NCBI GenBank assembly: GCA_903840415.1
Contig: CAIMFY010000110.1
Location: forward strand, 62,001-126,000
Length of the DNA stretch: 64,000 nucleotides
Direction of reading: 5' to 3'
From: an uncultured Opitutia bacterium
GTDB lineage: Bacteria > Verrucomicrobiota > Verrucomicrobiia > Opitutales > Opitutaceae
The notes under the pieces were generated by a model, which was given only the letters and a program-made list of their open reading frames with translations, was not told the origin of the DNA and ran no database searches. The stretch's first letter is position 1. Each line of letters begins with the position of its first letter. This document shows, in pieces, positions 2 to 20,139 of the stretch. The position numbers were made by a program, and so were the translations under genes.

Positions 2-166
2 CCTCCCGGATCGCAGGATCGACTTTATTGGAGTCCGATTTTCGACCCGGTGCGCGAGGACCCGAGGTTCCTGCGCAAAGTCGAAGAGTTGGGGGTCGCC
101 GCGGAATACAAGGTCGCACGTGCGACGCTCGCGCGGATGCTGAAGGAGCAGGAGGCGAAAAAATGA
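2..166 (+). CDS. 3' end of a TPR-type protein (5' end outside window)
   Basis: An open frame enters from the left edge and stops with TGA at 164-166. Its last 54 codons include the motif FDPVREDPRF followed by a charged tail ending in EAKK. The same motif closes the TIR-TPR-TolB-like protein further downstream (FDPVREDPRF near its C-terminus, also ending in EAKK), so this is very likely the tail of another large TPR protein of the same family. Its stop overlaps the start of the next gene in an ATGA (163-166), which places it in the same translationally coupled operon. Whether it carries a TIR or TolB-like domain cannot be seen. Confidence 0.75.
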   Translation, partial: PPGSQDRLYWSPIFDPVREDPRFLRKVEELGVAAEYKVARATLARMLKEQEAKK

Positions 167-3333: not shown

Positions 3334-6300
3334 GCGAGCCGACCAAGGCCGTATTCCTGAGCTACGCGTCCCAAGACGCCGAGGCGGCGCGGCGCATTTG
3401 CGACGTGCTGCGCAGTGGTGGCGTCGAAGTGTGGTTCGACGCTGACGGCGGGCTCGAACACGGCGACGAATGGGACGTAAAAATCCGCCGTCAAATAAAA
3501 GAGTGCGTGCTGTTCATTCCCGTCATCTCGGCGAACACGCAGGCGCGGCACGAAGGTTATTTCCGGATCGAGTGGGATCTCGCGGCGGAGCGGGCGCGCG
3601 GCATCGCGAGCGGCGTGCCCTTTATTTTGCCGGTCGTGATCGATGACACCCGCGAGCCCGACGCGCTGGTGCCGGATCGTTTCCGCGCCGTGCAGTGGAC
3701 CAAGCTCCGCGGCGGCGAAGTTCCTCCCGAGGTGCAGCAGCGTTTCCTGAAACTCTGGTCGCACCGCACCGGCGTGTTGAAGCACGAGGCGACGCAGGCG
3801 AGCGCCCCGGAAGTTCGCGCCGCACCTTCAGCCGCCGAGACGATCGGCAAACCCGGCGTGAAAAATTACGCGCTCATCGCGGCGGCGATCGCCGTCATCG
3901 TTGCCGGCGTCGGTTGGTGGCTGCTCGGCGGACGCAGCAAACCCGCTGCGCCGTCGCGCGCGCCGGCCATTGCCGTCACGCCTGCGAACCCCGCTCCGGC
4001 CACCGCGCCGCTTTCCGAGGCGCGGCAACTCGCGGAGAAGGCGCGCGCGCTGTTCGACGCTCTCGACGGCACGCGCGACGACTACAAGCTCGCGGAAGAA
4101 TTGATCGCGCAAGCGAAGACAAAGGACGGCACCGACGCCGAGGTTTGTGCCGCCGAGGCGCAGTTGCATGAGCGATTCATCCAGCGCGGCTGGGACTCCT
4201 CCGATGCGCGCCGCGAGGCGGCACGTGCAGCGGTGCAACGTGCGATGCGGCTCGATCCGCAGTCGTTCGAGGCGCGCTTTGCGCAAGCCTTTCTGCTGAG
4301 TTACACTGGCAGCGACGGCTTGGAGCGCACGCGGCAGATGAGCGTGCTGCGACGCGAGCGGCCGACCGATCAGCGGATCCTTCGCGCGCTGGGCACGGGA
4401 CTCGATCGTCTGGGCCGCTTGGAGGAAGCGATCCCGATCTTGGACGAATCCGCGGCACTGCCCGGCGGCGACCCGCTCGCGCTCTACACCAAGAGCCAGA
4501 TTTATTGGTGGGTCGGCCGCACGGCCGAAGCCGAGGCGGCGATTGAGGCATCGATCGCACAGAAGCCGTTCACCGGGGCGCTGCTGATGAACGTCTGGTA
4601 TAAGACGACCCTCCATGGCGATCTCGACAGCGCGTGGGCGCTGCTGAACCGCATCAACCCGGCGGAATTGGTGGAGGACCGCGCCTGTTTCTTTGCCTTT
4701 TGCATCGAGTGGTATGCGCGCCGACCCGACGCCGCGATTGCCCACCTCTCGGTCGTGCCGCGCGACTGGCTCAACGACAATTTTTATCGCGGACCCAAAG
4801 CTCTGCTCGTCGGCGACGCCCAGCAACTCGCCGGCCGGCCCGACGCCGCCGCTCTCGAATGGCGCGCGGCGCTCAAGCTGGTGGACCAACGGCTGGCGGC
4901 CAGTCCCAACGACTGGCAATTGCTCAGTCATCGCGTCGGCCTGCTGGTCCGGCTGGGCCAGCGCGAGGAGGCGGAGCGCTTGCTTGGCGTGCTGACCCAA
5001 CTGCTGGGGTCCGATGCCGATACGACCTCGCGTGTGCTGAGCAGAGCTTACACGCAGCTGGGCCGCCAAGCGGAAGCCATCAGCCAAATCTCCGCCGGCT
5101 TGAAACGAGGCAAGCGTGCCGTCCTATTCACTGCGGCCGACCTGCGGCTCAATCCCAGCTGGGATCCGCTGCGCAGCGAACCGGCCTTCGCCGCCGTCAT
5201 CGCCGAAGCCGAAGCGATCGAAAAAGCGGCGGCGCTCCAGAGCGGCGGTGGTGGCGGCGCCGCGCTGGCTCCGGCGGCCGACGCCAAATCCGTCGCCGTG
5301 CTAGCGTTTGCGAATCTGAGCGACGACAAGGGCAACGAGTATTTTTCCGACGGCATCAGCGAGGAGTTGCTCAACGTGCTTGCGAAGGTGCCGGGACTGA
5401 AGGTGACGGCGCGCACGTCGGCGTTTTTCTTCAAAGGCAAAAATCTGCCGATTCCCGAAATCGCCAGGCAACTCGGCGTCGCCTACGTGATCGAGGGCAG
5501 CGTGCAGCGCGCGGGCGAGAACGTCCGCATCACTGCACAGCTCATCAAGGCCGCCGACGGGTTCCACGTCTGGAGCGAGCACTTCGACCGCGAGTTGAAA
5601 AACGTTTTCGCGCTGCAGGATGAAATCGCGGGGCTCATCGCGAACCAACTTTCGCTCAAGCTTGGCGCTAGTTCCGCCGCGGCCGCGACGAGCGTGAACC
5701 CGCAGGCGCTGGAATTCTATCTGCAAGCCAATCAATTGATGCGTTTGCGCGACACGATTTTCATCAACACCGATCGCGTGGAGGAACTGCTCAACCGGGC
5801 GCTGGCGCTCGAGCCGAATTTCGCGCGCGCCCAAGCCATGCTCGCCGTGGTCTGGACGGTGCGCGGCAGCCTGCAATCCAGCTCGATCAGCCGCTTCGGC
5901 CAGCGCCATTCGCCGGAGCGGGCGCGGATCGAAGCCAAGGCGCGACAGGCGATCGCGCTCGACCCGACGGCACCGGAACCGCACGTCGCCCTGGCAATGG
6001 GAATGTGGACCTGGTGGGATCGGGCCGGCGCCGAAAACGAACTACACACCGCGCTCTCGCTCAACCCTAGTCATGCCGTCGCCCATCAGCAACTCGGGAT
6101 CATGGCCATGGATGACGGACGGATGGACGATGCCATCGCCGAGGTGAGGTTAGCGGTGCAACTGGATCCCCTATCGCAGGACTCCATCGAGTCTTTGGCG
6201 CGCAAGCTGCATGTGGCGGGCCGCTACACTGAGGCGATCGCCACCTACGATCGCGCGCTGGCTCTGGCCGACTCCGAGGTCGCGCGCGAGCACAAGGCTT

Positions 6301-6683
6301 ACGCGCTCGCCCAACTGGGCCAGAAAGAGGCCGCGCTGGCCTTGGCCCGCAGCCTGTCGCTTGAATGGCTGCGATTCCGGACGTTCGCGGCGGCAGGCGC
6401 CTGGGCGGAGGCGGAGAAAACGTTCCCGACCACAGCACCTGAAAACCGAGCCTATTATTTGTTCATGCTCGGGCGGACGGAAGAAGGACTCGCCGCCCTC
6501 AATCCGGCGGAGATGGAGTCAACCTATTTGCACGACGTCCTCTTTGAACCCTGGTTCGATCCGGTCCGAGAGGATCCGCGCTTCAAGAAATTTCTGGAAA
6601 CGCTCGGCGTCACGGAATCCCACGCCCGTGCGCAGGCGTGGCGCAAGGCGCATCCGGCAGAAAAATCGGAGGCGAAGAAATGA
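3330..6683 (+). CDS. TIR - transmembrane - TPR - TolB-N-like - TPR protein
   Basis: 1117 residues from ATG 3330, which overlaps the previous stop (ATGA). The N-terminal TIR domain (about 6-142) has KAVFLSYASQD, GVEVWFD and FRIEW with Glu81 in the catalytic position. A hydrophobic helix lies at about 181-199. One TPR module follows (about 215-645), then at about 652-778 a domain beginning SVAVLAFANLSDD and containing EYFSDGISEEL and VIEGSVQR. This is typical of the TolB-amino-terminal-like domain (COG5616 type) often found next to TPR repeats in regulatory proteins. A second TPR block closes the protein, ending FDPVREDPRF. It is the only complete member of the four with the TolB-N-like insertion. 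The FDPVREDPRF ending is shared with the partial gene at the left edge, so that gene may have the same architecture. Confidence 0.85.
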   Translation: MSEPTKAVFLSYASQDAEAARRICDVLRSGGVEVWFDADGGLEHGDEWDVKIRRQIKECVLFIPVISANTQARHEGYFRIEWDLAAERARGIASGVPFILPVVIDDTREPDALVPDRFRAVQWTKLRGGEVPPEVQQRFLKLWSHRTGVLKHEATQASAPEVRAAPSAAETIGKPGVKNYALIAAAIAVIVAGVGWWLLGGRSKPAAPSRAPAIAVTPANPAPATAPLSEARQLAEKARALFDALDGTRDDYKLAEELIAQAKTKDGTDAEVCAAEAQLHERFIQRGWDSSDARREAARAAVQRAMRLDPQSFEARFAQAFLLSYTGSDGLERTRQMSVLRRERPTDQRILRALGTGLDRLGRLEEAIPILDESAALPGGDPLALYTKSQIYWWVGRTAEAEAAIEASIAQKPFTGALLMNVWYKTTLHGDLDSAWALLNRINPAELVEDRACFFAFCIEWYARRPDAAIAHLSVVPRDWLNDNFYRGPKALLVGDAQQLAGRPDAAALEWRAALKLVDQRLAASPNDWQLLSHRVGLLVRLGQREEAERLLGVLTQLLGSDADTTSRVLSRAYTQLGRQAEAISQISAGLKRGKRAVLFTAADLRLNPSWDPLRSEPAFAAVIAEAEAIEKAAALQSGGGGGAALAPAADAKSVAVLAFANLSDDKGNEYFSDGISEELLNVLAKVPGLKVTARTSAFFFKGKNLPIPEIARQLGVAYVIEGSVQRAGENVRITAQLIKAADGFHVWSEHFDRELKNVFALQDEIAGLIANQLSLKLGASSAAAATSVNPQALEFYLQANQLMRLRDTIFINTDRVEELLNRALALEPNFARAQAMLAVVWTVRGSLQSSSISRFGQRHSPERARIEAKARQAIALDPTAPEPHVALAMGMWTWWDRAGAENELHTALSLNPSHAVAHQQLGIMAMDDGRMDDAIAEVRLAVQLDPLSQDSIESLARKLHVAGRYTEAIATYDRALALADSEVAREHKAYALAQLGQKEAALALARSLSLEWLRFRTFAAAGAWAEAEKTFPTTAPENRAYYLFMLGRTEEGLAALNPAEMESTYLHDVLFEPWFDPVREDPRFKKFLETLGVTESHARAQAWRKAHPAEKSEAKK

Positions 6684-7072
6684 GCGTGATCGCAACCCAT
6701 TCCTCGGGCGCGTGGCCGTGGCCCGACTCGCTGGATGCGCTCCAGGCCGCGCCGCAGCATCACTGCGTCACATTTGAAAACGATCGGGTGCGAGTGCTCG
6801 ACACGCGGATCAGCCCGGGCGACACGGTTCCTCTGCACACGCACCGCTGGGCGTCCGTGCATCACATCCAGAACTGGAGCGATTTTGTGCGGCGTGATGC
6901 CGAGGACCGCGTGCTCGTCGACACGCGCGGCCGACCGGCGCCGGCGAGTCTGCCATGGATCCAGTGGGGTGAGCCGCTGCCGCCGCATACGCTGGAAAAT
7001 GTCGGCGCGACGGAGTTGCACGTGGTCAGCATTGAGCTCAAGAGTGGTCCGTTCGCGAGTTCCCACCCGTGA
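6680..7072 (+). CDS. small cupin-fold protein
   Basis: 130 residues from ATG 6680, overlapping the previous stop (ATGA); its own stop overlaps the GTG of the next gene (GTGA, 7069-7072). The region around residues 47-62 (SPGDTVPLHTHRW) resembles cupin motif 1, with metal-ligand candidates His53 and His55. A second conserved stretch (PPHTLENVGATELHVV) fits cupin motif 2. No signal peptide or membrane segment, so it is probably cytoplasmic. The substrate cannot be predicted; cupins include dioxygenases, isomerases and ligand-binding sensors. Its position inside an otherwise all-TIR operon, with coupled junctions on both sides, suggests it works with those proteins. Confidence 0.72.
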   Translation: MSVIATHSSGAWPWPDSLDALQAAPQHHCVTFENDRVRVLDTRISPGDTVPLHTHRWASVHHIQNWSDFVRRDAEDRVLVDTRGRPAPASLPWIQWGEPLPPHTLENVGATELHVVSIELKSGPFASSHP

Positions 7073-10000
7073 GCGATTCCAGCAAAGCCGTTTTTCTCAG
7101 CTACGCCTCGCAGGACGCGGAGGCGGCGAAGAAAATTTGCGACGCGCTCCGCGCCGCGGGGGTCGAGGTGTGGTTCGACCGGAGCGAGCTGCGTGGCGGC
7201 GATACGTGGGACCAGAGTATCCGCAAGCAGATCAAGGAGTGCGCGCTGTTTCTCCCGGTGGTGTCAGCCAACACTCAGGCGCGGCGCGAGGGCTACTTTC
7301 GGCTCGAATGGAAACTCGCCGACGACCGCACGCACCTGATGGCGCGCGGCACGCCGTTCCTCGTGCCAGTGTGCATCGACGACACGAAGGATTGGGACGC
7401 GCTCGTGCCGGACTCGTTCATGAGTGTGCAGTGGACGCGGCTGCCCGGCGGCGAGACGCCGGCGAAATTCTGCGACCGCGTGCTCGCGCTGCTCCGGGGC
7501 GAGGTCGCGCCAGCGCGTCCGCGTCCTGCCGCGCGGGCGTCGCACTCCGACTCATCGGCGTCCTCGGTCCCGTTAGCGTCGCCGCCCGATAAAAAATTTC
7601 CGACGTGGACGCTCGCGGTCGGCGCTGCCGTCGTGATCGGCGCCGGCGTTTTCTTTGCGACGCGATCGAAGCCGCCGACACCGCCATCGTCAGCGCCGGT
7701 GGCTGCCGCCACGGCTCCGGCCGCGCCGGTCGTGGCGCCGCCGGCCGCAACTTCGGGGGACCCGGAACTCAAGCGGGCGCAGCAACTCATCGATTCCCCG
7801 GAGGCAATTTTCGCAGACGTCACGCTGGCGGAGGAATTGTGCCGCAACGTCCTCTCGCAGCGTCCGACTGATCCGGCCGCGTCCGTGATGATGGCGCGCG
7901 TCCAGAGCTATGTTTTGTTGCGCGGCTTCGATCGTAGCGAGGCGCGCTTCTCGCAGGCGCGGCAGGCGGCGGAGCGCGCCTTTACCCTGGCTCCGGACGA
8001 CGTGGAAGCGGCCGCCGCAATGGGCACCTATCTTTATGCTCGCGGTATCGAGCTGTCGCGCGCCGCGAAACTTTTCCGGTCGGCGATCATGGCGCGACCG
8101 GATGAGCCGCGGTTTTACCGGATGCTCGACAACGTCCTCTCGAACGATTCCAAAGTGCCGCGGGCGGAGCTGATCGCCTCGGCGGAGCGCACGGCGCAAC
8201 GTTTTCCCAAGGATGCGCTCGTGCACTACGAACTGGCCCGGCACTACCGCGATGCGGCGATGCTCGAGCCGACCGAACGCGAGCTCGACCTCGCGATCCA
8301 GCTCGGTCCCGTCGCCAACGCGATCATCGCGAAGGCGCGGCTGGCGCTTGTCGTGCGGGGCGACGCCGCGGCGATGAAGGCCCTGCTCGATCAATTGCCC
8401 GAACGCTACCGCACGACGGACCGCGCAGTGTTCAGCCAAGTCCAATATGCGTTTGCCAGCGGTCGTTATGAGGAGGGCCTCGAGGCGCTGCGGGCGGTGC
8501 CGGAGCCGTGGCTGGTGGATTTCGAATTTACCGGGCCCAAGGCGCTGCTGGCGGGTGAGCTGCAGTTGTTGCAGGGCAAACCCGAACTCGCGCGGCTGAG
8601 CTTCGAGTCGGCGGTGGCGGAGCTCGCGAAACACACGGCGGTCGCCAACGTGAGCTTCCGTTCCATGTGGCTCGACGCGTGGCTTCTCGCGCGACTCGGG
8701 CGGGGCGAGGAGGCCCGCACGCGCAACGCCGTGATTTTCCCGGAATATCCGCGGCCGTTCCAAATCTACTTGGGCCAGAACTGGTGGTTTAACCCGATCA
8801 CCCTTAACCTCATCATCGGCGAACGCGCCAAGGCGCTTGATCTGATGCGCGAAGTGGTCGAGTTCCAGGATGGCCGCGGCATCATGCGCGTGGCCATGAA
8901 GGTCGACCCACGCATGGCGCCGTTCCGCGACGATCCGGAAATCAAGGCGCTGCTCACGGCGCCCACGACGACCGGCCCGAAGATCGCCCTCACCGCCCGC
9001 GATTGGCCGCATAACCCCGAACTGAAGCGCGCCATCGCCCTGCTCGACGGGCTCGACGCCATCCGCGACGACTTCGCGCTGGCCGAGGAGATCACCAAGC
9101 ATGAACTCGACCGGGTGCCGGGCGACGCCGAGGCCGCGACCGTGATGGCGCGCGTGCAAAACCAATATCTCCTCCGCGGCTTCGACCGGCGCGAATCGCG
9201 CGCCGCGCTGGCCAAACAATACGGCGAGCGGGCCGTGCAACTCGCGCCCGACGAACCCGAGGCGCTCTATGCACTGGCGAATTTTCTCGGCAGCCGGGGC
9301 GCCGATGCGACGCGGGCGGAGAGCCTGCTGCGCCGCGCGTGCGAACTTCAGCCGGGCCAGCCGCGCTTCTGGCGGCTGCTGGCCACCCAGGTTTTTGATC
9401 GGGATCGGGCCGAGGCCATCAAGATCGCCGAGGAGAACGTGCGGCGGTTTCCGGCGGACGCGCTGACCCACTACGATCTTTCCATTCTCTACCGCAATCA
9501 GCGGCGCTGGGCGGATTTTGAGCGGGAGACCGACGCGGCGTTGGCGCTCGCTCCGGTCGCGAATGCGATGGTGTGGAAGGCCCGGGCGATGCTCGGATTG
9601 CATGGCGACATCGCCGGCATGAAGACCTGGCTCGACAAGGTGCCGGCGCGACTCAACTCGCAGGAGCGGGCGGTTTACAGCCGGTTCCTCTACGCCGCGA
9701 TGACTGGAGAATTTGAGATCGGCTTTGCGGCGTTGCGCGGTTTCACCGATCTGTGGTTCGTCGAATCGAGCGAATACGGCGGACCGACCGCCCTCCTCAC
9801 CGCGACATTGTTCGAGTTGCAAGGCAAGGCGGCGCTCGCCCGACTGCAGTATGAGGCCGCGCTCAGCGAGGCGCAGCGGCAGAAGGCGGCAACCCCCTCG
9901 GACCTCTACGTGCGCGGCGCGGAAGTCTGGGCGCTTCGCGGACTGGGCCGGCTCGACGAAGCCCGCACGCTCAATCGCGCCTACCTCGAAACGGTGGCCC

Positions 10001-10236
10001 GTCCGCTGCGCCTCTCGCCGATCTTCGGTTGGTGGTTTGGGCCGATCGCGCAGAGCCTTTTAATCGGCGACCGCGACACGGCACTGGTGTTGATCCGCGA
10101 AGTCGCGGCCAACCCCGTCGGCCGCGAAGCGCTCCGCGTGCATTTTCGCACCGACCCGCGCATGGCGCATTTCCGCGACGACCGGGAAATCACCGCGCTC
10201 TTCGCCGAGCCGGCCGCGACCGATCCAAAACAATGA
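7069..10236 (+). CDS. TIR domain - transmembrane - TPR protein (third)
   Basis: 1055 residues from GTG 7069, the only start that keeps the whole TIR domain; it overlaps the cupin stop (GTGA). TIR spans about residues 6-142 (KAVFLSYASQD, GVEVWFDRSE, FRLEW with Glu80), followed by a Pro/Ala/Ser-rich linker, a hydrophobic helix at about 180-197 and a second Pro/Ala-rich linker. Two homologous helical-repeat modules follow, each starting with a PELKRA block and an LLRGFDR signature and ending DPRMAPFRDD or DPRMAHFRDD. The modules resemble each other more than those of the sister genes, which suggests a duplication within this gene. Membrane-anchored signalling or NADase role inferred from domain content. 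Confidence 0.85.
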   Translation: MSDSSKAVFLSYASQDAEAAKKICDALRAAGVEVWFDRSELRGGDTWDQSIRKQIKECALFLPVVSANTQARREGYFRLEWKLADDRTHLMARGTPFLVPVCIDDTKDWDALVPDSFMSVQWTRLPGGETPAKFCDRVLALLRGEVAPARPRPAARASHSDSSASSVPLASPPDKKFPTWTLAVGAAVVIGAGVFFATRSKPPTPPSSAPVAAATAPAAPVVAPPAATSGDPELKRAQQLIDSPEAIFADVTLAEELCRNVLSQRPTDPAASVMMARVQSYVLLRGFDRSEARFSQARQAAERAFTLAPDDVEAAAAMGTYLYARGIELSRAAKLFRSAIMARPDEPRFYRMLDNVLSNDSKVPRAELIASAERTAQRFPKDALVHYELARHYRDAAMLEPTERELDLAIQLGPVANAIIAKARLALVVRGDAAAMKALLDQLPERYRTTDRAVFSQVQYAFASGRYEEGLEALRAVPEPWLVDFEFTGPKALLAGELQLLQGKPELARLSFESAVAELAKHTAVANVSFRSMWLDAWLLARLGRGEEARTRNAVIFPEYPRPFQIYLGQNWWFNPITLNLIIGERAKALDLMREVVEFQDGRGIMRVAMKVDPRMAPFRDDPEIKALLTAPTTTGPKIALTARDWPHNPELKRAIALLDGLDAIRDDFALAEEITKHELDRVPGDAEAATVMARVQNQYLLRGFDRRESRAALAKQYGERAVQLAPDEPEALYALANFLGSRGADATRAESLLRRACELQPGQPRFWRLLATQVFDRDRAEAIKIAEENVRRFPADALTHYDLSILYRNQRRWADFERETDAALALAPVANAMVWKARAMLGLHGDIAGMKTWLDKVPARLNSQERAVYSRFLYAAMTGEFEIGFAALRGFTDLWFVESSEYGGPTALLTATLFELQGKAALARLQYEAALSEAQRQKAATPSDLYVRGAEVWALRGLGRLDEARTLNRAYLETVARPLRLSPIFGWWFGPIAQSLLIGDRDTALVLIREVAANPVGREALRVHFRTDPRMAHFRDDREITALFAEPAATDPKQ

Positions 10237-13200
10237 GCGAGTCGACCAAAGCCGTCTTCCTCAGCTACGCGTCGCAGGATGCGCCGGCGGTGGAGCGCAT
10301 CGCCGAGGCGCTGCGTGCCTCGGGCATAGAGGTGTGGTTCGACAAGAACGAACTCGTCGGCGGCGACGCGTGGGACCAAAAAATTCGAAGGCAGATCAAG
10401 GAGTGTGCGCTATTCGTGCCGGTGATTTCCGCGAATACCCAGGCCCGCGCCGAGGGTTATTTTCGGCTCGAGTGGAAACTTGCCGTCGATCGTTCGCACC
10501 TGATGGCGGACGACGCGCCGTTTTTGTTTCCCGTCGTGATCGACGAGACGTCCGACGCGGCGGCGCGCGTGCCGGACAAATTTCGCGAAGTGCAGTGGAC
10601 GCGGCTCAGTGTGAAGGACACGCCCGAGACGCTCGCCGCGCGCGTCGCAAAAATCCTCGGCGGCGAATCGATGAAAACGGGCGCGGTCATAGGGGCGTCG
10701 CTTGACGACGCCCGCGGGCGTGGGCGAGCCACGCCCCTACAATCGAAAAGTCCGTCGTGGCTGCGCTATGTTTGGATGGGTTTTGGCATTCTCATTGCAC
10801 TGATCTACGCGCTGCGCCCGATGTGGTCGCCGCCGCGGGCGCGGGATGCCCAGCCGCCGGTCGCGGAAAGGTCCGCCGCGTTGGCTCCCAAGTTTTCCGA
10901 GGCGCGCCAGCTCGGCGAAAAAGCCCGCGCGCTTTTCGACAAGATCGACTCCAACGCCGACGATTTCGCCATCGCCGAAAGCCTGCTCAAGCGCGCACTC
11001 GAGCTCGACGCTACCGACGGCGTCATCTGGGCCTACTCGGCGCGCCTCAACAGCGCCTATGTCACGCGCAATTTTGATCGGGCTAGCACCGCGCGCGCCG
11101 AGGCCTCGCGCAGCCAGGCGGAACGCGCAGTGAAGCTCGCGCCCGATTCCGCGGAGGCGTGGCATGCGCTGGGCCGGAGCCTGTTTTTGACCGATCGCCC
11201 GCAGGCCGAGGAGGCGCTGCGCCACGCGATCCAGCTCGCGCCGGACGACGGCCGTATTCTGCTCAGCCTGGGCTCAGTCTGCCGCCTGCAAGGCCGGCCC
11301 GACGAGGCGCTCGCGTTCTACGTGCGGGCCACCGCGCAACCGGACGTGAAGTCGCTCGCCCTCTACGACCAGTTCTTGATCCACCTTTACCTGCGGCGCT
11401 TCGCCGAAGCTGACCGCTGCGTGCGCGAATCGATCGCGGGACTGCCCACGACCAACAACCTGACCGGGCGCGCCATGCTTGAGATCGCCTGGCGCGGCGA
11501 CCTCGACGCCGCGCAGCGCACCCTAGCCGACGCACCCGCCGCCATGCGGGCGGAACCGCGCATGGTGTTTATCAGTGCGCTCGTGGCGCTGATGGCCAAA
11601 CAGACGGACGATGCCTTGCGCGCGCTCGACCGGCTGCCCGGCGAGTTCATCAACGATGCGTGGTATTCTGGGCCGAAGGCGCTGCTCGTTGGCCTCGCGC
11701 ACACGCAAGCCGGCCGCCCCGAAGCTGCGCGCATCGACTGGGAAGCCGGCGTCACCGTCGTGCGCCGCCGCCTCCAAGACGCTTCGAACGACCCCGAACT
11801 CCACCTCCGCCTCGGCGAACTTCTCGCATGGTCGGGCCAGGCCGAGGAGGCGCTGCGCGAGGCGCGCGCGTTCGAGGAACTCGCGCGCAACCGCACCGAC
11901 TGGACGCTCTCCTCCGCGCGCATCTACGCCGCGCTCGGGCGCGCCGACGAGGCGCTGCCGATTCTCGAAAAATTTCTCACGGTCACGGCTTCGGGCCGCT
12001 GGCCGCTCACCCCCGCGGTCCTCCGGCTCGACCCGCTGTGGAGCAAGTTGCGCGACGACCCGCGGTTTCAGGCGCTGTGCGTGGAGCCGGCGGAAAAAAT
12101 CGAAGCGAAGCCGTTGAGCGAAGGCGCGCAACTCGCGGCGCGCGCGCTGGCGCTGATCGTCAAGGTCGGCTTCACCCGCGACGATCTGGCGCCAGCGGAG
12201 GATTTCGCGCGGCGCGCGACGGACCGCGAACCCGACTCCGCCACCGCGTGGGGCGTGCGCGCCGGCGTGCAGTCCGCGTGGCTGTTCCGCGGCTGGGACA
12301 CCAGTGAAAAACGACTCCAGGACACCCAGACGTTCGCGAATCACGCTCTCGCGCTCGATCCGAAGGAGCCCGAAGCCTTGCTCGCGCTCGGCCACGTGCT
12401 GCGGACGCAGGGCGCTTTCGACCAAGCCGAAGCGCACCTGCGCCGGGCGTTGGCGGCCAATCCGACCCATATCCGGCTCGCGCGCGCGCTGGGTTACACC
12501 CTGAACACCGCTGGGCGCGATGAGGAGGCCCGGACGGTGTTGCTCGAAGCCGCTAAGCGCGCGCCGCGCGATCCGCTGCTGCGCTACGAGCTAGCGCTGG
12601 CCTATTCGACTTACGGGGCAAATGGCGCGAATCCCAAAAATGTTGCGGGTGCGCTCGAACAACTCGACACCGCGATCGCGATCCAGCCATTTTCCTCCGC
12701 CTTGATTCTGAAGGCGATGCTCCTCGGTGGCTGGCGCGGCGATCTTGCGGCGATGCGTGGCGCGCTCGACCAGCAGGACAAGCTCCCGCTGGCCGAGCGA
12801 TCCGAAGATCGCTCGGTTTGCGTGGAAATGTGGGCGGGCCTGCTGGAACACCGGCCGGATCGCGTTGAGACGGCGGCAGCGTTGACCGCGCGCAACTATT
12901 TTGACGACTCGGTCATGCCGCTGCGACCGAAGTCTTGGTCACTCGCACTGGCGCACCGGCTGGTCGGCAAGGATAACTTGGCTCGCAACGACTGGCAGGC
13001 GGCTGAAACCGTGCTGCGCCAACGGCTACAGGACGATCCCGCCAACGAGAAATATCAAGTCGAACTCGCCATCACTCTCGCGTGGCTCGGCCAGCGCGAG
13101 GAAGCGGCCCGGCTCGTGGCTCCGATCGAGCCGGTTTGGAAGGAAGAGTTCAAGTTTTGGCGGACGGCCTTGCTGGCGCGGTATTACGCGGCCTTGGGCG

Positions 13201-13352
13201 ACATCGCTAAGGCGATGCCGTATCTCGCTCAGGAGATTGATCAGAATGCGTTCACCACGCATAAAGTGATCCCGCTCGATCCATGGTGGGACAAACTGCG
13301 CGGGCAACCCGTGTTTGAGGCGCTGCTCAAGGCGCCGGTGGAGAAAAAATAG
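10233..13352 (+). CDS. TIR domain - transmembrane - TPR protein (fourth)
   Basis: 1039 residues from ATG 10233, overlapping the previous stop (ATGA). The TIR domain (about 6-142; FRLEW with Glu80) is nearly identical in protein and close in DNA to that of the gene at 163, pointing to recent duplication or gene conversion. The linker between TIR and the transmembrane helix (about 177-194) contains residues encoded by a REP-like double hairpin (10690-10739), read in frame. Two TPR-type modules follow, closing with LDPLWSKLRDD and LDPWWDKLRG. The TAG stop at 13350-13352 lies inside a hairpin that probably ends the operon. This is the last gene of the coupled series. Confidence 0.85.
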   Translation: MSESTKAVFLSYASQDAPAVERIAEALRASGIEVWFDKNELVGGDAWDQKIRRQIKECALFVPVISANTQARAEGYFRLEWKLAVDRSHLMADDAPFLFPVVIDETSDAAARVPDKFREVQWTRLSVKDTPETLAARVAKILGGESMKTGAVIGASLDDARGRGRATPLQSKSPSWLRYVWMGFGILIALIYALRPMWSPPRARDAQPPVAERSAALAPKFSEARQLGEKARALFDKIDSNADDFAIAESLLKRALELDATDGVIWAYSARLNSAYVTRNFDRASTARAEASRSQAERAVKLAPDSAEAWHALGRSLFLTDRPQAEEALRHAIQLAPDDGRILLSLGSVCRLQGRPDEALAFYVRATAQPDVKSLALYDQFLIHLYLRRFAEADRCVRESIAGLPTTNNLTGRAMLEIAWRGDLDAAQRTLADAPAAMRAEPRMVFISALVALMAKQTDDALRALDRLPGEFINDAWYSGPKALLVGLAHTQAGRPEAARIDWEAGVTVVRRRLQDASNDPELHLRLGELLAWSGQAEEALREARAFEELARNRTDWTLSSARIYAALGRADEALPILEKFLTVTASGRWPLTPAVLRLDPLWSKLRDDPRFQALCVEPAEKIEAKPLSEGAQLAARALALIVKVGFTRDDLAPAEDFARRATDREPDSATAWGVRAGVQSAWLFRGWDTSEKRLQDTQTFANHALALDPKEPEALLALGHVLRTQGAFDQAEAHLRRALAANPTHIRLARALGYTLNTAGRDEEARTVLLEAAKRAPRDPLLRYELALAYSTYGANGANPKNVAGALEQLDTAIAIQPFSSALILKAMLLGGWRGDLAAMRGALDQQDKLPLAERSEDRSVCVEMWAGLLEHRPDRVETAAALTARNYFDDSVMPLRPKSWSLALAHRLVGKDNLARNDWQAAETVLRQRLQDDPANEKYQVELAITLAWLGQREEAARLVAPIEPVWKEEFKFWRTALLARYYAALGDIAKAMPYLAQEIDQNAFTTHKVIPLDPWWDKLRGQPVFEALLKAPVEKK
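10690..10739. repeat. REP/BIME-like double hairpin inside a coding region
   Basis: Two adjacent perfect 8-bp hairpins: GGGCGTCG-cttga-CGACGCCC at 10693-10713 and GGGCGTGG-gcgag-CCACGCCC at 10716-10736. They are bracketed by an inverted TAGGGGCGT / ACGCCCCTA pair (10690-10698 and 10731-10739). The two 24-nt arms are inverted copies matching at 20 of 24 positions. The right end reads GTAGGGG on the minus strand, resembling the GTAG foot of REP elements mobilised by RAYT (Y1) transposases. It lies in the TIR-to-membrane linker and is translated without a stop. I see no other close copy in the window. Confidence 0.75.
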
Positions 13353-13376
13353 GCACGAGGAGTGCGGCTATTTTTT
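13344..13376. terminator. bidirectional terminator containing both stop codons
   Basis: AAAAAATAG at 13344-13352 pairs with CTATTTTTT at 13368-13376, continued by GCAC/GTGC (13353-13356 and 13362-13365) around a GAGGA loop with a GG bulge. The A-run becomes a U-run in either direction, so it can work as an intrinsic terminator on both strands. The stop of the plus-strand TIR gene (13350-13352) and that of the minus-strand gene (13368-13370) are both within the stem. Confidence 0.7.
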
Positions 13377-13721
13377 CGCGGGCGGTGCTTTTGGCTTCGC
13401 AGGCGCCGGAGGTTTTTGATCGGAATAGACGGGCGAGGTCGGAAAGAACGGCGCGATGTAGTCGATGGCGGGTTTCAGGATCGCCGGCTCGGTGCGCGTG
13501 ATCGTCCAGTGCAGTGTCAGAATGAACAAGACGATCAGACAAATGAACGCGACGAGCGCCGGACTGATGCTCTTGAGCAACCGGTAAAAACTGATCGTCA
13601 TCATCACCGCCAGAAACCCGCAGAGGATCGTGAGGAAGTGGTGTTCGCCGAAGAGCGAATCGAGGGCGCTCCACAGGGTGTGGAGTTGTTGATAGAGCGG
13701 GGAGAGATCGACGTTTTTCAC
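13368..13721 (-). CDS. small membrane protein of unknown function
   Basis: 117 residues with two hydrophobic helices (about residues 28-46 and 54-72), a short loop, and a Pro/Ala/Lys-rich C-terminal tail ending PKAPPAKK. I do not recognise a family. It converges on the TIR operon and shares the terminator hairpin with it, and it is divergent from the next TIR gene. The A/P/K-rich tail is common in high-GC membrane proteins and gives no functional clue. Topology prediction suggests both termini face the same side. Confidence 0.65.
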   Translation of the reverse strand: MKNVDLSPLYQQLHTLWSALDSLFGEHHFLTILCGFLAVMMTISFYRLLKSISPALVAFICLIVLFILTLHWTITRTEPAILKPAIDYIAPFFPTSPVYSDQKPPAPAKPKAPPAKK

Positions 13722-13953: not shown

Positions 13954-16164
13954 ATGATTGCGCGCGCACCATCCATTTTAACTGCGGAGCAACTTGCTGC
14001 GCCCGGTGCGACCGTCGGCAAACGCTACCGCGTGTTTCTCAGTTACAGTCACACGGACACGACGTGGGCGCGCTGGCTGATGCGGCGGCTGGAAGGCTAC
14101 CGGGTGCCCGCGCGGTTTCACGGCCGCGCCGCGCCGATCGGTGCGGTGGGCGCGCGCATCGCGCCGGTGTTTCGCGATCGCGATGAGTTGCCGACGACGA
14201 GCGATCTCGGGGAAACGATCCGTGGGGCGCTGCGCGAATCGGCGACGCTGGTGGTGATTTGCTCGCCGACCTCGGCGAAGTCGCGCTGGGTGCGGGAGGA
14301 GATTCTGACGTTCAAGCGCCTCGGTGGTAGCGCGCGGGTGTTTGCTTTCATCGTCGATGGCGAACCGAAGGCGCAAGGCACCGATGAAGATTGTTTTTCA
14401 CCGGCGCTTCGCTTCGAACTCGGCGCGGATGGACAACTCTCGGCGACTCCCGCTGAACATGTGGCCGCCGACGCGCGGCCGGAGGGCGACGGCAAGGAAG
14501 ATGCGTTCGTGCGCCTCGTGGCCGGCCTCCTCGGCCTGGGCTTCGATGAATTGCGCCGGCGCGAACAGGCCCGGCGGCTTCGCCGGTTGACGTGGATTGC
14601 GGTTAGCTCCGTCGCGGGCATGGCGATCACGCTCGGCCTCGCGCTCTACGCGATGAATGCCCGCAACGAGGCGGTGTTGGCGCGCAACGATGCGCAACGC
14701 CGGCAGGATCACAGCGAGGAACTGATCGCGGTCATGTTGAATGACATGAAAGCCGGGCTGCAAAAGGCGGACAAGCTGGACGCCTTGGATGAAACGGGGG
14801 CGAAATTGATGGGCTATTTTCAAACCCTCGATCCGCGCGATCTGACGGATACCACTCTGGCCCAGCAGGCCAAGGCGCTCACGCAGATCGGGCAGATTCG
14901 GATGGCGCAGTTGCGCTACGCCGAGGCGAGCGCGGCGTTTGCGACGGCGTTTGCCCGATCGGCTGCGTTGGCGAACCGGCATCCGGGTGACGGCGGCATG
15001 TTGTTCGATCGGGCGCAGGCGGAATATTGGGTCGGCTTCGTGCAATATAAACGAGGCGAACTGGCGCCTGCCGGCGAATGGTTTGCGCGTTATCGCGACT
15101 CGGGGGTTTCGCTCGCGGGTCTTAACCCGGGCAACCAGACATGGCAGTTGGAGAAAGTTTCAGGACTGCACAACCTGGCCGTGCTCGAACTGGAACGGGG
15201 GAATCTCGCGGAAGCACGCACGGGATTTTTGGAGGAACTGGCGACCCTCGAGAAAATGGCGGCGGTCGCGCCCGCCGATTCCCCGATGAAGTTCAAGATC
15301 GCGAACATCGAATCGTTTCTTGGCACGACGGCGGAGCGCGCCGGTGATTTTCCCGAGGCGATTGCGCGCTATGGCCAACAGGTGGCCCGACTCGAAGAAT
15401 TAGTGCAGGCCGAGCCGCAGAGTGCGCGGTGGCGACGGCGGTTCGGCGACGCCGTGGCGCTGCGGGTGGGGGCGATGATGATCTCCGGGCAGCGATCGGC
15501 CGCCGGCGAAGGGCGCCGGCAGGCGCTGGAGATTTTTGAGAGCCTTGCGGCGCAAGACACGACCAACCGCGAATGGCAGTATGCGGTGATGAACGCGCGA
15601 TTGAAGGAGGCAATTTTGCTGCGCACCGACGGCCCCGGGAGTGCAGCCGCCAAGATCGTCCATGAATGTCTGCCGACGATCGAGCAGCTGTCCAAGAGCG
15701 AGACGTCAGACCGCGCGATCGCTGGGTTGTTGGCCACCTGCTGGCGACTGGAGGCGCAATCGAGTGATGCGGCGTCGCCTTCGATTGCGGCCCACGCGGT
15801 GGCCCAGGCGATGGCGATTGGCAAGTCTCTGCTTGAGCAAAATCGCGCCAGTGAGACTAATCTTGGCGACTATGCCAGTGCCTGTGTCGTCGCCGGCGAG
15901 ATCGCACGGCGCAGCGGCGAGACTGAGGCGGCGCGCCGGCGCTGGCAAGAGGTCGTCGAATTGCTCCAGACCCGCATCGAAAAATCGAGAAACTGGCGCG
16001 TGCTGGATCCGGCGGCGCGTGCCCTCTGCTTCCTCGGCCGTGACGACGAAGGCCAGGCTCTGATCAGCCGGCTGCAAGCCACCGGCTATGAGCCGCTCGA
16101 AGCGTGGCCCGATCTCAATCATCCAGTTTTTCCCGCACCCAACAACCTGACTCAGTCAAAATAG
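13954..16164 (+). CDS. TIR domain - transmembrane - helical-repeat protein (distinct subtype)
   Basis: 736 residues if started at ATG 13954. The frame is open further upstream, and ATG 13828 would add a Cys-rich hydrophobic segment (NCVLALWAVVCLMARVV) that could be a signal or membrane anchor, so the start is uncertain. The TIR domain covers about residues 24-140: RVFLSYSHTD at the front, VFRDRDELP, and SRWVREEI with Glu116 in the position of the NADase glutamate. A helix at about 212-233 crosses the membrane. The C-terminal 500 residues are helical repeats of TPR type, preceded by the segment EELIAVMLNDMKAGL. This SYSHTD-type TIR differs from the SYASQD type of the upstream operon. Two small paralogous genes follow in the same direction. 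Confidence 0.8.
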   Translation: MIARAPSILTAEQLAAPGATVGKRYRVFLSYSHTDTTWARWLMRRLEGYRVPARFHGRAAPIGAVGARIAPVFRDRDELPTTSDLGETIRGALRESATLVVICSPTSAKSRWVREEILTFKRLGGSARVFAFIVDGEPKAQGTDEDCFSPALRFELGADGQLSATPAEHVAADARPEGDGKEDAFVRLVAGLLGLGFDELRRREQARRLRRLTWIAVSSVAGMAITLGLALYAMNARNEAVLARNDAQRRQDHSEELIAVMLNDMKAGLQKADKLDALDETGAKLMGYFQTLDPRDLTDTTLAQQAKALTQIGQIRMAQLRYAEASAAFATAFARSAALANRHPGDGGMLFDRAQAEYWVGFVQYKRGELAPAGEWFARYRDSGVSLAGLNPGNQTWQLEKVSGLHNLAVLELERGNLAEARTGFLEELATLEKMAAVAPADSPMKFKIANIESFLGTTAERAGDFPEAIARYGQQVARLEELVQAEPQSARWRRRFGDAVALRVGAMMISGQRSAAGEGRRQALEIFESLAAQDTTNREWQYAVMNARLKEAILLRTDGPGSAAAKIVHECLPTIEQLSKSETSDRAIAGLLATCWRLEAQSSDAASPSIAAHAVAQAMAIGKSLLEQNRASETNLGDYASACVVAGEIARRSGETEAARRRWQEVVELLQTRIEKSRNWRVLDPAARALCFLGRDDEGQALISRLQATGYEPLEAWPDLNHPVFPAPNNLTQSK

Positions 16165-16177
16165 AAAGACACCCGCT

Positions 16178-16717
16178 ATGCCGAATCCGAATCCACGAGC
16201 CCGCGTCAGCGTCGACGTCACGAACTTTATCGATGTCCTCAACACGCCCCTGGGCGTGGGCAACCGCGTCTGCGCCGCCACCGTGATCTTGGAAAAATCC
16301 ATCACGAAAGTGATCACGCAAAATCCGCCGAAAACCGGCTCGATCATTGTCTACGCTCCGGTGGAAGTCGAATTCAAGATGCTCGGTGCGACCACCTATC
16401 GACTCGCCGGCATCGCCTTCAGGAACAGCTCCGCGGCGTTTCGCCTGCACCAGAAGGGCACCAAGACCCGCCGGGATGAGCACGGGAACGGCAGCGAAAA
16501 CATGCCGAAGGACAGCATCTTGATTAACGAGTCCGGCAATGGTGACACCACGATTCAAATCACCGACGACTTCTCCACCCATGGTGTGCCGCCGAATCAG
16601 CCCACCTGGGAATTTTATCTCTTGGTGCAGGACAGCCACGGGTTTGTCGGCATCATCGATCCCGATATCGAAAATCAATCTGAGGCCATGAAGCGCGGCC
16701 GGTCGCGCGCGTCCTAG
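16178..16717 (+). CDS. small protein of unknown function, paralogue A
   Basis: 179 residues beginning 13 bases after the TIR gene stop, with AGAAAG upstream of the ATG, so probably co-transcribed with it. No signal peptide or membrane segment. It looks beta-rich and shares with the next gene an N-terminal VTNFIDV/VTNIDFVDV motif, a central INES/INEL motif with an alternating hydrophobic strand, and a tail WEFYLLVQDSHG... GIIDPDIENQS. After that motif it has an extra basic tail (KRGRSRAS). I do not recognise the family; a beta-sandwich fold is a guess. Confidence 0.7.
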   Translation: MPNPNPRARVSVDVTNFIDVLNTPLGVGNRVCAATVILEKSITKVITQNPPKTGSIIVYAPVEVEFKMLGATTYRLAGIAFRNSSAAFRLHQKGTKTRRDEHGNGSENMPKDSILINESGNGDTTIQITDDFSTHGVPPNQPTWEFYLLVQDSHGFVGIIDPDIENQSEAMKRGRSRAS

Positions 16718-16761
16718 TTCCGGCTTTCGTTCCACCACCACACCCAACCAAAGGAAAACAT

Positions 16762-17208
16762 ATGGGCCAAGCCACAGTCACCGTCACTAATATCGATTTC
16801 GTCGACGTCATCAGCTCGTTCGGCGCCGGTGCCGAACGCTATTCCACCGCCACGTTTACCATTCAACCGAATCCACCGTCTGGCATTACTCAAAATGCCA
16901 CGGGGCGATTGATCGTGACCGCCGATACGGACATCACCTTCAGTTTTCCGGCGGGCAGTCCGTGCGTGCCGATGGGCATCAGCCATCGGCAGAAAAAGGG
17001 AAGAAGCGATCCGTGCGGCAAGGAAAACTTTCCGAAGGAGCACATTGTGATCAACGAACTGCCGGACGGCAGCGCGACGATCAAGATTCGCAACAAGTGC
17101 CGGCACAAAGGTGCGGCCGACACGTTTGTCTGGGAGGTTTACATCGGCATCCACGACAGCGCCGGAACGCTCGGAATCATCGATCCCGACATCGAAAACC
17201 AGAGCTAA
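16762..17208 (+). CDS. small protein of unknown function, paralogue B
   Basis: 148 residues with a good ribosome-binding site (AAGGAAA about 7 bases before ATG 16762). It is a tandem paralogue of the preceding gene, ending in the identical GIIDPDIENQS. It differs in having four cysteines (SPCVP, SDPCGK, RNKCRHKG), whereas paralogue A has one. No signal peptide or membrane helix. The gene is followed by a clear intrinsic terminator, which would end a TIR-A-B transcription unit. Function unknown. Confidence 0.7.
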   Translation: MGQATVTVTNIDFVDVISSFGAGAERYSTATFTIQPNPPSGITQNATGRLIVTADTDITFSFPAGSPCVPMGISHRQKKGRSDPCGKENFPKEHIVINELPDGSATIKIRNKCRHKGAADTFVWEVYIGIHDSAGTLGIIDPDIENQS

Positions 17209-17268: not shown

Positions 17269-18621
17269 TCACTTCGCCGTCGGCGCGCCAGTCACCGTGC
17301 CGGCTTTGATCAACACCATTTTTTCCGGATCGAGATGCTTTTTGATCGCGCCGTTGACCTGCGCGGTGGTGAGTGCGGCGACGCGAGCCGGATATTGGTC
17401 GATGAAGCTGAGATCGAGATCCCGGTTGAGCGTCGTGAGGATCGTGCCGGCCATGCCGCCGGTCGTCGAGAGCCCGACTTTGTAGCTGCCGGCCAGATCG
17501 GTCTTGCGCTGGGCGAGTTCGGCGTCGGTCACGCCGCTCTGATACCAGGCGAGGAGCTGGCGTTTCGTCGAGTCGATGCCTTTCTCAAGCAGGCCGGGCG
17601 CGAAGTTGGCCTGGATGCGCCAGTCGCCATCGACGAAGGTGTCGTTGGTCACCAAGGAACCGATACCGTAAGTGAGGCCTTCCTTGTCGCGGACGTTGGC
17701 CATGAGGCGGCCGGTGAAACCGCTGCCGAGGATTGCGGTGCCGACGCGCAGGGCGAGCGTGTCGGGTTCGCCGTAGCGGAGGCCGGTCGTCTGGCCCCAC
17801 ATGACGGTGACGTTGGTCTTGTCGGGCATGAACACGGTTTGATCGCGCGGGGCATCGACGTTGGTGGCTTTTGCGGGGTGCGGCGGGACTTCGCCACCGG
17901 TCCAGCCGGCAAACGATTTCGTGACCTCGCCCTGCGCGGCGGCGACATCGACATCACCGACGAGCACGAGGCGCAGAGTCGCGGGACCATAATACTTTTT
18001 GTGAAACGCCTTCACTTCTTCGAGGGTGGTCTTGTCGGATCCGGCGAGGAGTTCTTTCACGGGCACCTGGCGGTTCGGGTGGCCGATGGGATAAATCGAG
18101 CGGGAGAACGTGTCGCCGGCGCGGAAATCGGTGTCGTCCGAAGCGCGTTTCAGGCGGCCGGCGAATTGTTTTTTAAACTTGGCGAATTCCTCGGGCGTGA
18201 ACGCGGGCGTGCGGAGTTGCTCGGAGATGAGGCCGATCACGAGTGGGAGATCCTTGCGCAGGCAGTGGGCGTTGATGTTGAGGGAGCTTGCCGTGGAGTT
18301 GAACGAAATGCTCGCGCCGACGTCGCCGAGCATTTGGGAAATCGCGAACTTGTCGTGATTGGTCGTGCCTTTGTCGAGCAGGCCGGCGGTGAGATCGGCG
18401 AGGGCGGGGTTGGTGTCGGGGCTGAGCGAATCACCAGCGGCGAGCGAGCCGCGGAGGGTGACGACTTCCTGCACGCCCGTCTTGAGGACGACGAGATCGA
18501 TGCCGTTGACGGTGGTGCGGACGGCGTTTTTCGAGACCTGCGCGGAGGCGGTGAGCGCGAAGCTCAGGAGGAAAAATGGGAGGCTGGAGGCGGGAGGCGG
18601 GAGGCAAAAAAAGAATTTCAT
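17269..18621 (-). CDS. M16-family peptidase, non-catalytic subunit type
   Basis: 450 residues with an N-terminal signal-like hydrophobic segment ending ALTASA, so probably exported to the periplasm. The fold is that of M16 (pitrilysin/insulinase) peptidases, shown by the C-terminal signature GFTGRLMANVRDKEGLTYG and the preceding AILGSG. The zinc-binding HxxEH is absent at its usual N-terminal position, where ALADLTAGLLDKG occurs instead, as expected for the inactive partner of a two-chain M16 protease. It follows the catalytic subunit by 33 bases on the same strand, so the two probably form a heterodimer that degrades peptides in the envelope. Confidence 0.88.
   Translation of the reverse strand: MKFFFCLPPPASSLPFFLLSFALTASAQVSKNAVRTTVNGIDLVVLKTGVQEVVTLRGSLAAGDSLSPDTNPALADLTAGLLDKGTTNHDKFAISQMLGDVGASISFNSTASSLNINAHCLRKDLPLVIGLISEQLRTPAFTPEEFAKFKKQFAGRLKRASDDTDFRAGDTFSRSIYPIGHPNRQVPVKELLAGSDKTTLEEVKAFHKKYYGPATLRLVLVGDVDVAAAQGEVTKSFAGWTGGEVPPHPAKATNVDAPRDQTVFMPDKTNVTVMWGQTTGLRYGEPDTLALRVGTAILGSGFTGRLMANVRDKEGLTYGIGSLVTNDTFVDGDWRIQANFAPGLLEKGIDSTKRQLLAWYQSGVTDAELAQRKTDLAGSYKVGLSTTGGMAGTILTTLNRDLDLSFIDQYPARVAALTTAQVNGAIKKHLDPEKMVLIKAGTVTGAPTAK
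18578..18605. repeat. four heptad G-rich repeats within a signal-peptide coding region
   Basis: On the plus strand four tandem heptads lie at 18578-18584 (GGGAGGC), 18585-18591 (TGGAGGC), 18592-18598 and 18599-18605 (both GGGAGGC). They lie in the first 15 codons of the minus-strand M16 gene and encode its unusual LPPPASSLP stretch. The G-runs could form a quadruplex and the repeat could change copy number by slippage. Confidence 0.7.
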
Positions 18622-18654
18622 GGGGAAATGTTTTCTGGTTTCAAAACACGTGGG

Positions 18655-20064
18655 TCACTTCGCGGCGGGCAGGGCCGGTTCGGGCGCGGCGACGATCGGG
18701 ATGAACCAGCCGGTGACGCTCTGGTTGATGTCGAGGTAGCGGTTGGCGACGCGCTTCACGTCGTCGGGAGTGACTTTGCGCGTGGCGGCGTCGAGCGTGT
18801 AATAGAGGGTCCAGTCGCCGGCGGCGATGTCCTCGTTCAAGCTGCCGGCGATGGCGAAGGTGCCGTCGCGTTTGTAGGCCGTCGCGGCGACGAGTTTGCC
18901 GAGGGCGGTGGCGACTTCGGCGGGCGTCACGCCGTCTTTTTTCAAGCGATCGACTTCGGCGATGATGATTTTTTCGACCTGCTCATGAGTGGCCCCTGGC
19001 GCGAGGCTCGCATAGATTTGGAAGAGCGACGGATCGTGATAATAACCGGCACTGGCATCGACGCTGGTCGTGAGATTTTTGTCGGTGAGCGCGCGATAGA
19101 ACCGGCTGGTTTTGCCGCTGGAGAGGATGTTGCCGAGAATGTTGAGCGCCGGCAGATCGGGATGCGTGGCCGCGGGGCTTTTGTAGCTGATGCCGACGAC
19201 ACCGAGTTCGGCGGCGCGCTGGACGGTCACGCGACGCGGACCGCTTTGTTCGGGCTCCTCGGTGTAAACCTGCGGGATGGGCTTTGGTGCGCGCGGGTAG
19301 CCGCCGTAATTTTTCTTCACCAGCGCCATGGCGGTGGCCGGCTCGAAGTCGCCGATGATCGTTGCGGTGGCGTTGTCGGGCCAGTAAAACGTGTCGTAGA
19401 ACGCGCGGAGTTTTTCGATCGGCACTTTCTCGATGTCGCTGCGCCAGCCGATGGTCGAGTGGTGGTAGGGGTGCGCCTGAAACGCCGCGGCGAAGATTTC
19501 CTTGTCGAGCGCCTGCGTAGGATCGTTTTCTCCGATTTCGAATTCGTTGCGGACGACGGTCATTTCGGGGCGGCGGTCGTCTTCGCGCAGCCAGAGGTTG
19601 CGCATGCGGTCCGCCTCGATGGCCATGTAGCCGGCGAGGTGCTCGTTGCCGATTTCGGAGTAATAATTGGTGCGGTCGAGCCAGGTGGTGGCGTTGTAAT
19701 TTCCGCCGATCGTCTCGAGAAATTGCTTCACGCTGTTACCCTTGGCGTCGTTGAAATTCGGGCTGCCCTTGAACATCAGGTGTTCGAGCAGGTGCGTCGC
19801 GCCGGTCGTGCCGGTGACTTCGTTGCGCGAGCCGACGTGATAGGTGACCATGAACGTGACGACCGGGGCCGAGTGCTCGGGCAGGAGCAGCACAGAGAGG
19901 CCGTTGGCGTCCAGCGTGTATTCGGAGATCGCGCCGACGGTTTTCACATAGGTGAAGCCCTCAAATTTCTGAGGGGCGGGCGCGTCGGCGGCGCGGAGAG
20001 CGGCCACCGGGGCGAGAACAAAAAGGCCGGCAAGTAACGCGGACCAAGATCGGAAGAATTTCAT
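18655..20064 (-). CDS. M16-family zinc peptidase, catalytic subunit
   Basis: 469 residues from ATG 20064, chosen over the longer frame because it places a classical signal peptide (MKFFRSWSALLAGLFVLAPV, then AALRA) at the N-terminus. The zinc motif HLLEH lies at residues 91-95, with a further Glu-rich segment EADRMRNLWL and VRNEFEIGEND downstream supplying the third ligand, as in M16 peptidases. C-terminal M16 domain features include NILGNILSSGKTSRFYRAL. It acts together with the HxxEH-lacking protein encoded 33 bases downstream. Confidence 0.9.
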   Translation of the reverse strand: MKFFRSWSALLAGLFVLAPVAALRAADAPAPQKFEGFTYVKTVGAISEYTLDANGLSVLLLPEHSAPVVTFMVTYHVGSRNEVTGTTGATHLLEHLMFKGSPNFNDAKGNSVKQFLETIGGNYNATTWLDRTNYYSEIGNEHLAGYMAIEADRMRNLWLREDDRRPEMTVVRNEFEIGENDPTQALDKEIFAAAFQAHPYHHSTIGWRSDIEKVPIEKLRAFYDTFYWPDNATATIIGDFEPATAMALVKKNYGGYPRAPKPIPQVYTEEPEQSGPRRVTVQRAAELGVVGISYKSPAATHPDLPALNILGNILSSGKTSRFYRALTDKNLTTSVDASAGYYHDPSLFQIYASLAPGATHEQVEKIIIAEVDRLKKDGVTPAEVATALGKLVAATAYKRDGTFAIAGSLNEDIAAGDWTLYYTLDAATRKVTPDDVKRVANRYLDINQSVTGWFIPIVAAPEPALPAAK

Positions 20065-20139
20065 GCGAAGGAAGACGTGATAAGGTGCGAACCGTAACCA
20101 AAAGCGCGCCGAGGCCAAGTCGTTTGCGGCGAATCTCGC

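Follow-up and report, generated by a model that had tools for sequence, protein, structure and literature searches.

The kinase PknS of Xanthomonas citri, which is reportedly required for resistance to amoebae, belongs to the described systems that lie closest to the receptors examined here. According to one report, PknS has a periplasmic TPR region and phosphorylates the sigma factor EcfK, and the ECF43 kinase-sigma pairs PknS-EcfK and PknT-EcfP combine a cytosolic Hanks kinase, one helix and a TPR region with an adjacent sigma gene (PMC13147305). The kinase relatives of our locus resemble these pairs in architecture, having a kinase, a helix, a TPR half and a nearby sigma gene. They differ in that a gene for a small beta-sandwich protein follows, and in that a TIR domain can replace the kinase, in which case the sigma factor is absent. 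The TIR form, in turn, shares a TIR domain with a conserved Glu with Thoeris and other TIR defence systems; unlike in Thoeris, its TPR half is also found on kinases, and no ThsA-like gene was recognised adjacent to it.

For the small protein, the nearest described proteins are known by their folds. SO1698 of Shewanella, a DP-EP protein (PF08985), is said to cleave itself at an Asp-Pro bond, and PixA (PF12306) is an inclusion-body protein. MakC and MakD of Vibrio cholerae are described as small accessory proteins of unknown function that are not secreted and remain inside the cell (PMC11484084). The pairing of a TPR receptor with a small gene of the kind reported below was not described in the literature searched, in which subscription papers were thinly covered.

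The locus was found in the window, by which we mean the whole 64,000-nucleotide stretch of DNA analysed, and its features are collected in Table 1. An earlier note had recognised a TIR–membrane–helical-repeat protein followed by two paralogues carrying the peptide GIIDPDIENQS; the open reading frames and Pfam matches bear this out, and the repeats are TPRs. The receptor matches TIR_2 (5.3e-14), ThsB_TIR more weakly, and TPR_12; the ThsB_TIR match passes its cut-off (32.9 against 21.2 bits), with TIR_2 scoring better. Matches to the PADLOC ThsB model (E 0.018) and the NCBIfam Thoeris type III model (0.054) fall far below cut-off. As for a ThsA, the two small partners gave no PADLOC match, and the adjacent M16 and 117-aa genes were compared with Pfam alone. 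A Trp-Val-x-x-Glu stretch of the TIR domain, kept in all 14 aligned TIR receptors, contains Glu116 (codon 14299-14301), which we take to be the catalytic Glu. The basic stretch ahead of the hydrophobic helix suggests that the enzyme lies inside and the TPR half outside the membrane. Gaps of 13 nt and 44 nt separate the receptor from partner 1 and partner 1 from partner 2, respectively. Both flanks, the 117-aa gene and the M16 genes, are kept at L038, L040 and L044, and one flank at L034, L036, L090 and L100; the TIR module thus occupies a conserved chromosomal site in several genomes.

Table 1. Features of the receptor module and its flanks (positions in the window)
Feature	Coordinates	Strand	Basis or remark
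TIR–one membrane helix–TPR receptor protein, 736 aa from ATG	13954..16164	+	ORF call and Pfam
TIR domain, aa 27-136 of receptor	14032..14361	+	Pfam
Hydrophobic helix, aa about 213-234, basic stretch ahead of it	14590..14655	+	Hydropathy only
TPR half, ~500 aa, common to kinase receptors	14659..16161	+	Alignment and model
Small partner 1, 179 aa	16178..16717	+	ORF call, paralogue alignment
GIIDPDIENQS of partner 1, aa 158-168 of 179	16649..16681	+	
Small partner 2, 148 aa, predicted beta-sandwich	16762..17208	+	ORF call, model
GIIDPDIENQS of partner 2, aa 138-148; model strands 137-140 and 144-146	17173..17205	+	
Flank: 117-aa membrane protein	13368..13721	-	Adjoins TIR module also in L036, L038, L040, L044
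Flank: two M16-peptidase-like genes (first by Pfam)	17269..20118	-	Adjoin module also in L034, L038, L040, L044, L090, L100

The source genome holds 20 TIR_2 matches in all. Four further long TIR-TPR genes follow one another at window positions 163-13352, their ends overlapping; they belong to an extended series of TIR genes on the same contig, in which TIR_2 is matched from C110:49920 onwards. Between two of them a 130-aa ORF (6680-7072) overlaps both neighbours by a few bases and has no Pfam match at 0.01.

The two small proteins align end to end with 36% identity (pairwise E 5e-23) and are thus full-length paralogues, conserved most strongly in the tail; their bodies, earlier described as divergent, are related as well. 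GIIDPDIENQS is identical at all 11 residues, as had been noted, but as a terminal sequence it describes partner 2 only, since partner 1 continues for 11 residues beyond it. Five of its 11 codons differ between the two genes, all silently, which points to conservation at the protein level and rules out recent copying of DNA as the source of the identical tails. A search with the single protein found only these two copies in the source genome. No fitting family was found for the small proteins in Pfam, NCBIfam or PADLOC, nor in PHROGs below E 0.1, and sequence searches with the family profiles returned no solved structure.

A two-row profile picked up distant relatives within the taxonomic family of the source genome. 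With a 16-row profile, they were found in at least 36 of 252 genomes of that family. Across the phylum the 16-row profile detected at least 7 of 387 genomes, all of the same family, and the two-row profile only the source genome itself (1 of 387). A contig scan with the two-row profile gave 261 pattern matches, none confirmed; a second scan gave 30, of which eight were confirmed, all in records labelled Opitutia, Opitutae, Opitutaceae or Verrucomicrobia. None of 15 pattern matches in viral contigs was confirmed, and a profile search of plasmids found no small-protein match. The retrieved loci contained 60 small ORFs by profile, and 59 were aligned, one split gene being left out. A second copy in L098 (E 7e-4) and the plasmid ORF of L144 described below do not form part of the family profile. 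In the numbering of the 148-aa protein, F13, F90, G138, I140, D141 and P142 are nearly invariant. The Asp-Pro of the tail is present in 57 of the 59 members; one has His-Pro and one is truncated before the tail. Tandem arrangements were seen in the window, L043, L083, L088 and L106, and also in L098 and L100. By a crude rule, four of the 59 small proteins, plus one doubtful case, have a signal peptide. Likely carriers are found in L043 (9567-9971), L088 (9028-9525) and L037 (12650-13150); those of L043 and L088 are second copies behind a leaderless one, and that of L043 is shortened by a broken frame.

Among the 59 aligned members, 39 adjoin a kinase-helix-TPR receptor, 14 a TIR-helix-TPR receptor and one a truncated receptor, and five have none; the split small gene adjoins a split TIR receptor, so that a receptor of this kind stands beside 55 of 60. 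This agrees with the earlier note's proposal that the small genes belong functionally with the large TIR protein. Of the five members without a receptor, four (L034, L047 and the two of L100) border a contig end, which leaves L096 as a true orphan. L034 comes from the same genome as L036, whose second member it is; it lies where a different contig ends, next to the flank genes known from the window.

Counted from the receptor side, the TPR half was found in at least 41 of the 252 family genomes, on at least 62 receptors (63 rows, one being split). Both the small gene and the TPR half are present in 35 genomes, the small gene alone in one (at a contig end) and the receptor alone in six (Fisher p 1.7e-35). 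A small gene accompanies 56 of the 62 receptors (39 kinase, 16 TIR and one truncated), 49 recognised by profile and seven by eye from a DP-x-I tail. These seven ORFs end in D/H-P-x-I or similar and match the profile with E from 1e-20 to 0.006; a tail of this type was present in 4 of 212 unrelated small genes taken as a control. In all but one of the 49 profile-supported cases the small gene lies behind the receptor; in L036 it comes before the TIR gene. The receptors without a recognisable small gene are TIR receptors L128, L130 and L139 (broken) and kinase receptors L133, L136 and L137. Distances among TPR halves and among small proteins correlate (r 0.48, n 48, 0 of 5000 permutations), a figure that includes species history; within the TIR receptors alone the correlation is not significant (r 0.17, n 13, 785 of 5000 permutations). 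The pairing of small gene and receptor is firm, and near-constant adjacency to the same receptor half points to a dedicated receptor-partner pair.

The TPR halves of the TIR and kinase receptors are homologous, aligning over 499 columns with 39% identity (E 8e-139) when compared by hhalign with a set of 29 kinase sequences, one of which (L038.3) is not a small-gene partner. Six TIR-TPR proteins of the neighbouring type, used as a control, gave probabilities of 52 (E 1.5e-4) and 83 (E 9.6e-6), a general TPR likeness. The window receptor's TPR half is not specifically related to the TPRs of the neighbouring TIR-TPR operon, and no such small gene follows the TIR-TPR genes of that upstream operon. 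A tree built from 48 TPR halves shows two switches of the enzyme label, of which well-supported branches require at least one. The half is modelled as a solenoid of 20 helices (pLDDT 88.0); among solved structures a sequence search matched only general TPR proteins, and no match to it was found in phages. Since the TPR half is common to both kinds of receptor, it is a likelier partner for the small protein than is the TIR domain, and it is the likely point of contact.

The combination may extend in part beyond the family. On an alphaproteobacterial plasmid of Novosphingobium (L144), a TIR-TPR relative with 31.9% identity over 526 residues is followed after 9 nt by a 158-aa ORF that ends GLTIDPDIKNPPPQV, containing IDPDIKN. 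This ORF has no family-profile match at 1e-3, so that place, size and tail are the grounds for counting it as kin. No gene with a DP-type tail stood behind any of the five examined, of eight matches, among TIR-only plasmid relatives that lack this TPR half. In Niveispirillum (L145, 2216-5527) the TPR half carries another kind of front part, and the DP-type tail is absent behind it. By eye, that front part resembles a winged-helix regulator.

The two kinds of receptor differ in their further neighbours. The kinase domain is PF00069 (1.3e-43), and the gene near it encodes an ECF sigma factor (PF07638, 3.1e-55). A sigma gene lies within 3 kb on the same strand at 22 of 34 kinase receptors, the other 12 having none nearby, versus 0 of 13 TIR receptors; where at least 1.5 kb of upstream sequence is known, the figures are 21 of 28 and 0 of 11. 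In these 22 the Hanks kinase and adjacent ECF sigma gene of the described pairs recur, and no sigma gene was seen at the TIR module of the window. With the kinase exchanged for TIR, the sigma factor is gone and the small protein is kept, which assigns the latter to the input side. A Gly-rich gene is found near 10 of 34 kinase receptors versus 0 of 13 TIR receptors. Its product, of some 270-320 aa and leaderless in appearance, is encoded behind the small gene (L041, L042, L088, L110, L112 and others), and two such proteins scanned had no Pfam match at 0.01.

A model of partner 2 by AlphaFold2, made from 11 sequences, is all-beta (pLDDT 88.3, pTM 0.83). In a Foldseek search of the PDB the only matches below 0.001 were four SO1698 entries (E 8.2e-5 to 2.0e-4), whose TM-scores were low (0.34-0.43). 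VIA-align gave Z of 9.8 and 8.8 for PixA, 8.4-9.6 for SO1698, 8.5 for MakC and 7.7 for MakD, followed by 7.0 for 4q52 and then 5.9, and the tool warns that a best Z of 7 to 8 is common by chance. A viral fold library held no match at E<=0.001. The predicted model resembles PixA in its beta-sandwich (4lzk, Z 9.8, 3.2 A, 124 residues aligned, 4% identity) and in an Asp-Pro near the C-terminus, the PixA of the same taxonomic family (L142) ending in W-D-P, but the small gene differs in its context, a TPR receptor. PF12306 matched none of 16 small-family members at E<=1 (hhalign probability 0.2), and the true PixA genes (L142, L143) are separate from the small-protein family. The likeness to SO1698 comprises the fold and an Asp-Pro at the equivalent place within about two residues; PF08985 matched no small protein at E<=1 and found nothing over its cut-off in 19 and 213 genomes. 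MakC and MakD share the fold and are likewise a pair of small proteins, but are encoded with a secreted protein set and not with a receptor. Kinship of the small protein with these proteins is thus likely at the level of the predicted fold, and unproven by sequence.

Our preferred reading, to which we would give about an even chance, is of a receptor with a swappable enzyme whose activity is set by the small protein as a dedicated partner of the TPR half, the output depending on the enzyme. A membrane receptor would consist of a front enzyme, TIR or Ser/Thr kinase, one helix and the common solenoid of about 500 TPR residues, and the product of the adjoining gene, a small leaderless protein with the PixA/DP-EP fold, would pair with the TPR half and set receptor activity through binding or release. 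By analogy with PknS and EcfK, the kinase version would most likely act on the neighbouring ECF sigma factor, and the TIR version would most likely cleave NAD+. We regard regulation of the shared TPR half, by a partner dedicated to it, as the small protein's most likely role, with contact and direction of control both inferred. Against this stand its lack of a leader when the TPR half is predicted to face outside, the six receptors (three kinase, three TIR) without a recognisable small gene, the orphan member L096, the 12 kinase receptors that lack a nearby sigma gene, and a distance correlation that loses significance within the TIR receptors and includes species history.

An alternative that we consider unlikely puts the small protein at the output end, or makes it a client of the receptor: a self-assembling PixA-like protein whose synthesis or action is set off by receptor firing. 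The fold matches to the PixA inclusion-body protein and SO1698 favour it, as does the absence of a leader, by which the small protein would be cytosolic like the enzyme domains; MakC and MakD, too, remain intracellular in the source cited above. However, one small family accompanies two unrelated enzymes, which makes a common enzyme substrate unlikely, and no sequence relation to PixA was found.

Somewhat less likely again is that the small protein cuts itself at the tail Asp-Pro and that a released or exposed strand is the signal. Besides the near-universal Asp-Pro, this could draw on SO1698, the best Foldseek match, of which the wild-type and some mutant chains align only to residue 115/116, opposite model residues 141-143 (D141-P142), while mutants D37A, S114A, D116A and P117A align to 122. 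Yet the Asp is replaced by His in L093 and L129, no invariant column corresponds to a second catalytic Asp, PF08985 finds nothing over its cut-off, and the W-D-P ending of the family's PixA suggests that the motif may be structural.

A thin chance remains for an inhibitor or antidote that silences the enzyme in the manner of an antitoxin. The tight gene order, with 13 nt between receptor and partner 1, would suit it; the retention of the small partner when a kinase replaces the TIR domain, its usual place behind the receptor, and the conserved chromosomal site of the module in several genomes all speak against it. A longer shot still is a private lysis alarm, in which small protein freed from kin lysed by phage or predators would be caught by the outward TPR half of survivors and fire the TIR or the kinase-sigma output, a scheme under which a partner with no leader could meet a periplasmic sensor, and which brings to mind PknS and its part in amoeba resistance. 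Barely tenable, finally, is the earlier note's docking peptide for the TIR protein: conservation in the family peaks in the tail, but in the model of partner 2 the tail forms strands of the beta-sandwich and so is not a free peptide, and homologues stand mostly beside kinases (39 of 54 placed members), an outcome of the kind that the note itself had named as a refutation and one that also excludes a TIR-specific partner.

On the preferred reading of a regulated TPR receptor, the same sensor half and small partner serving two unrelated outputs, TIR and kinase, amount to a natural experiment. In TIR signalling, for which triggers are in many cases unknown, the module would let input and output be told apart; proteins of the PixA/DP-EP fold, which are poorly understood in function, would gain a directly testable candidate receptor.
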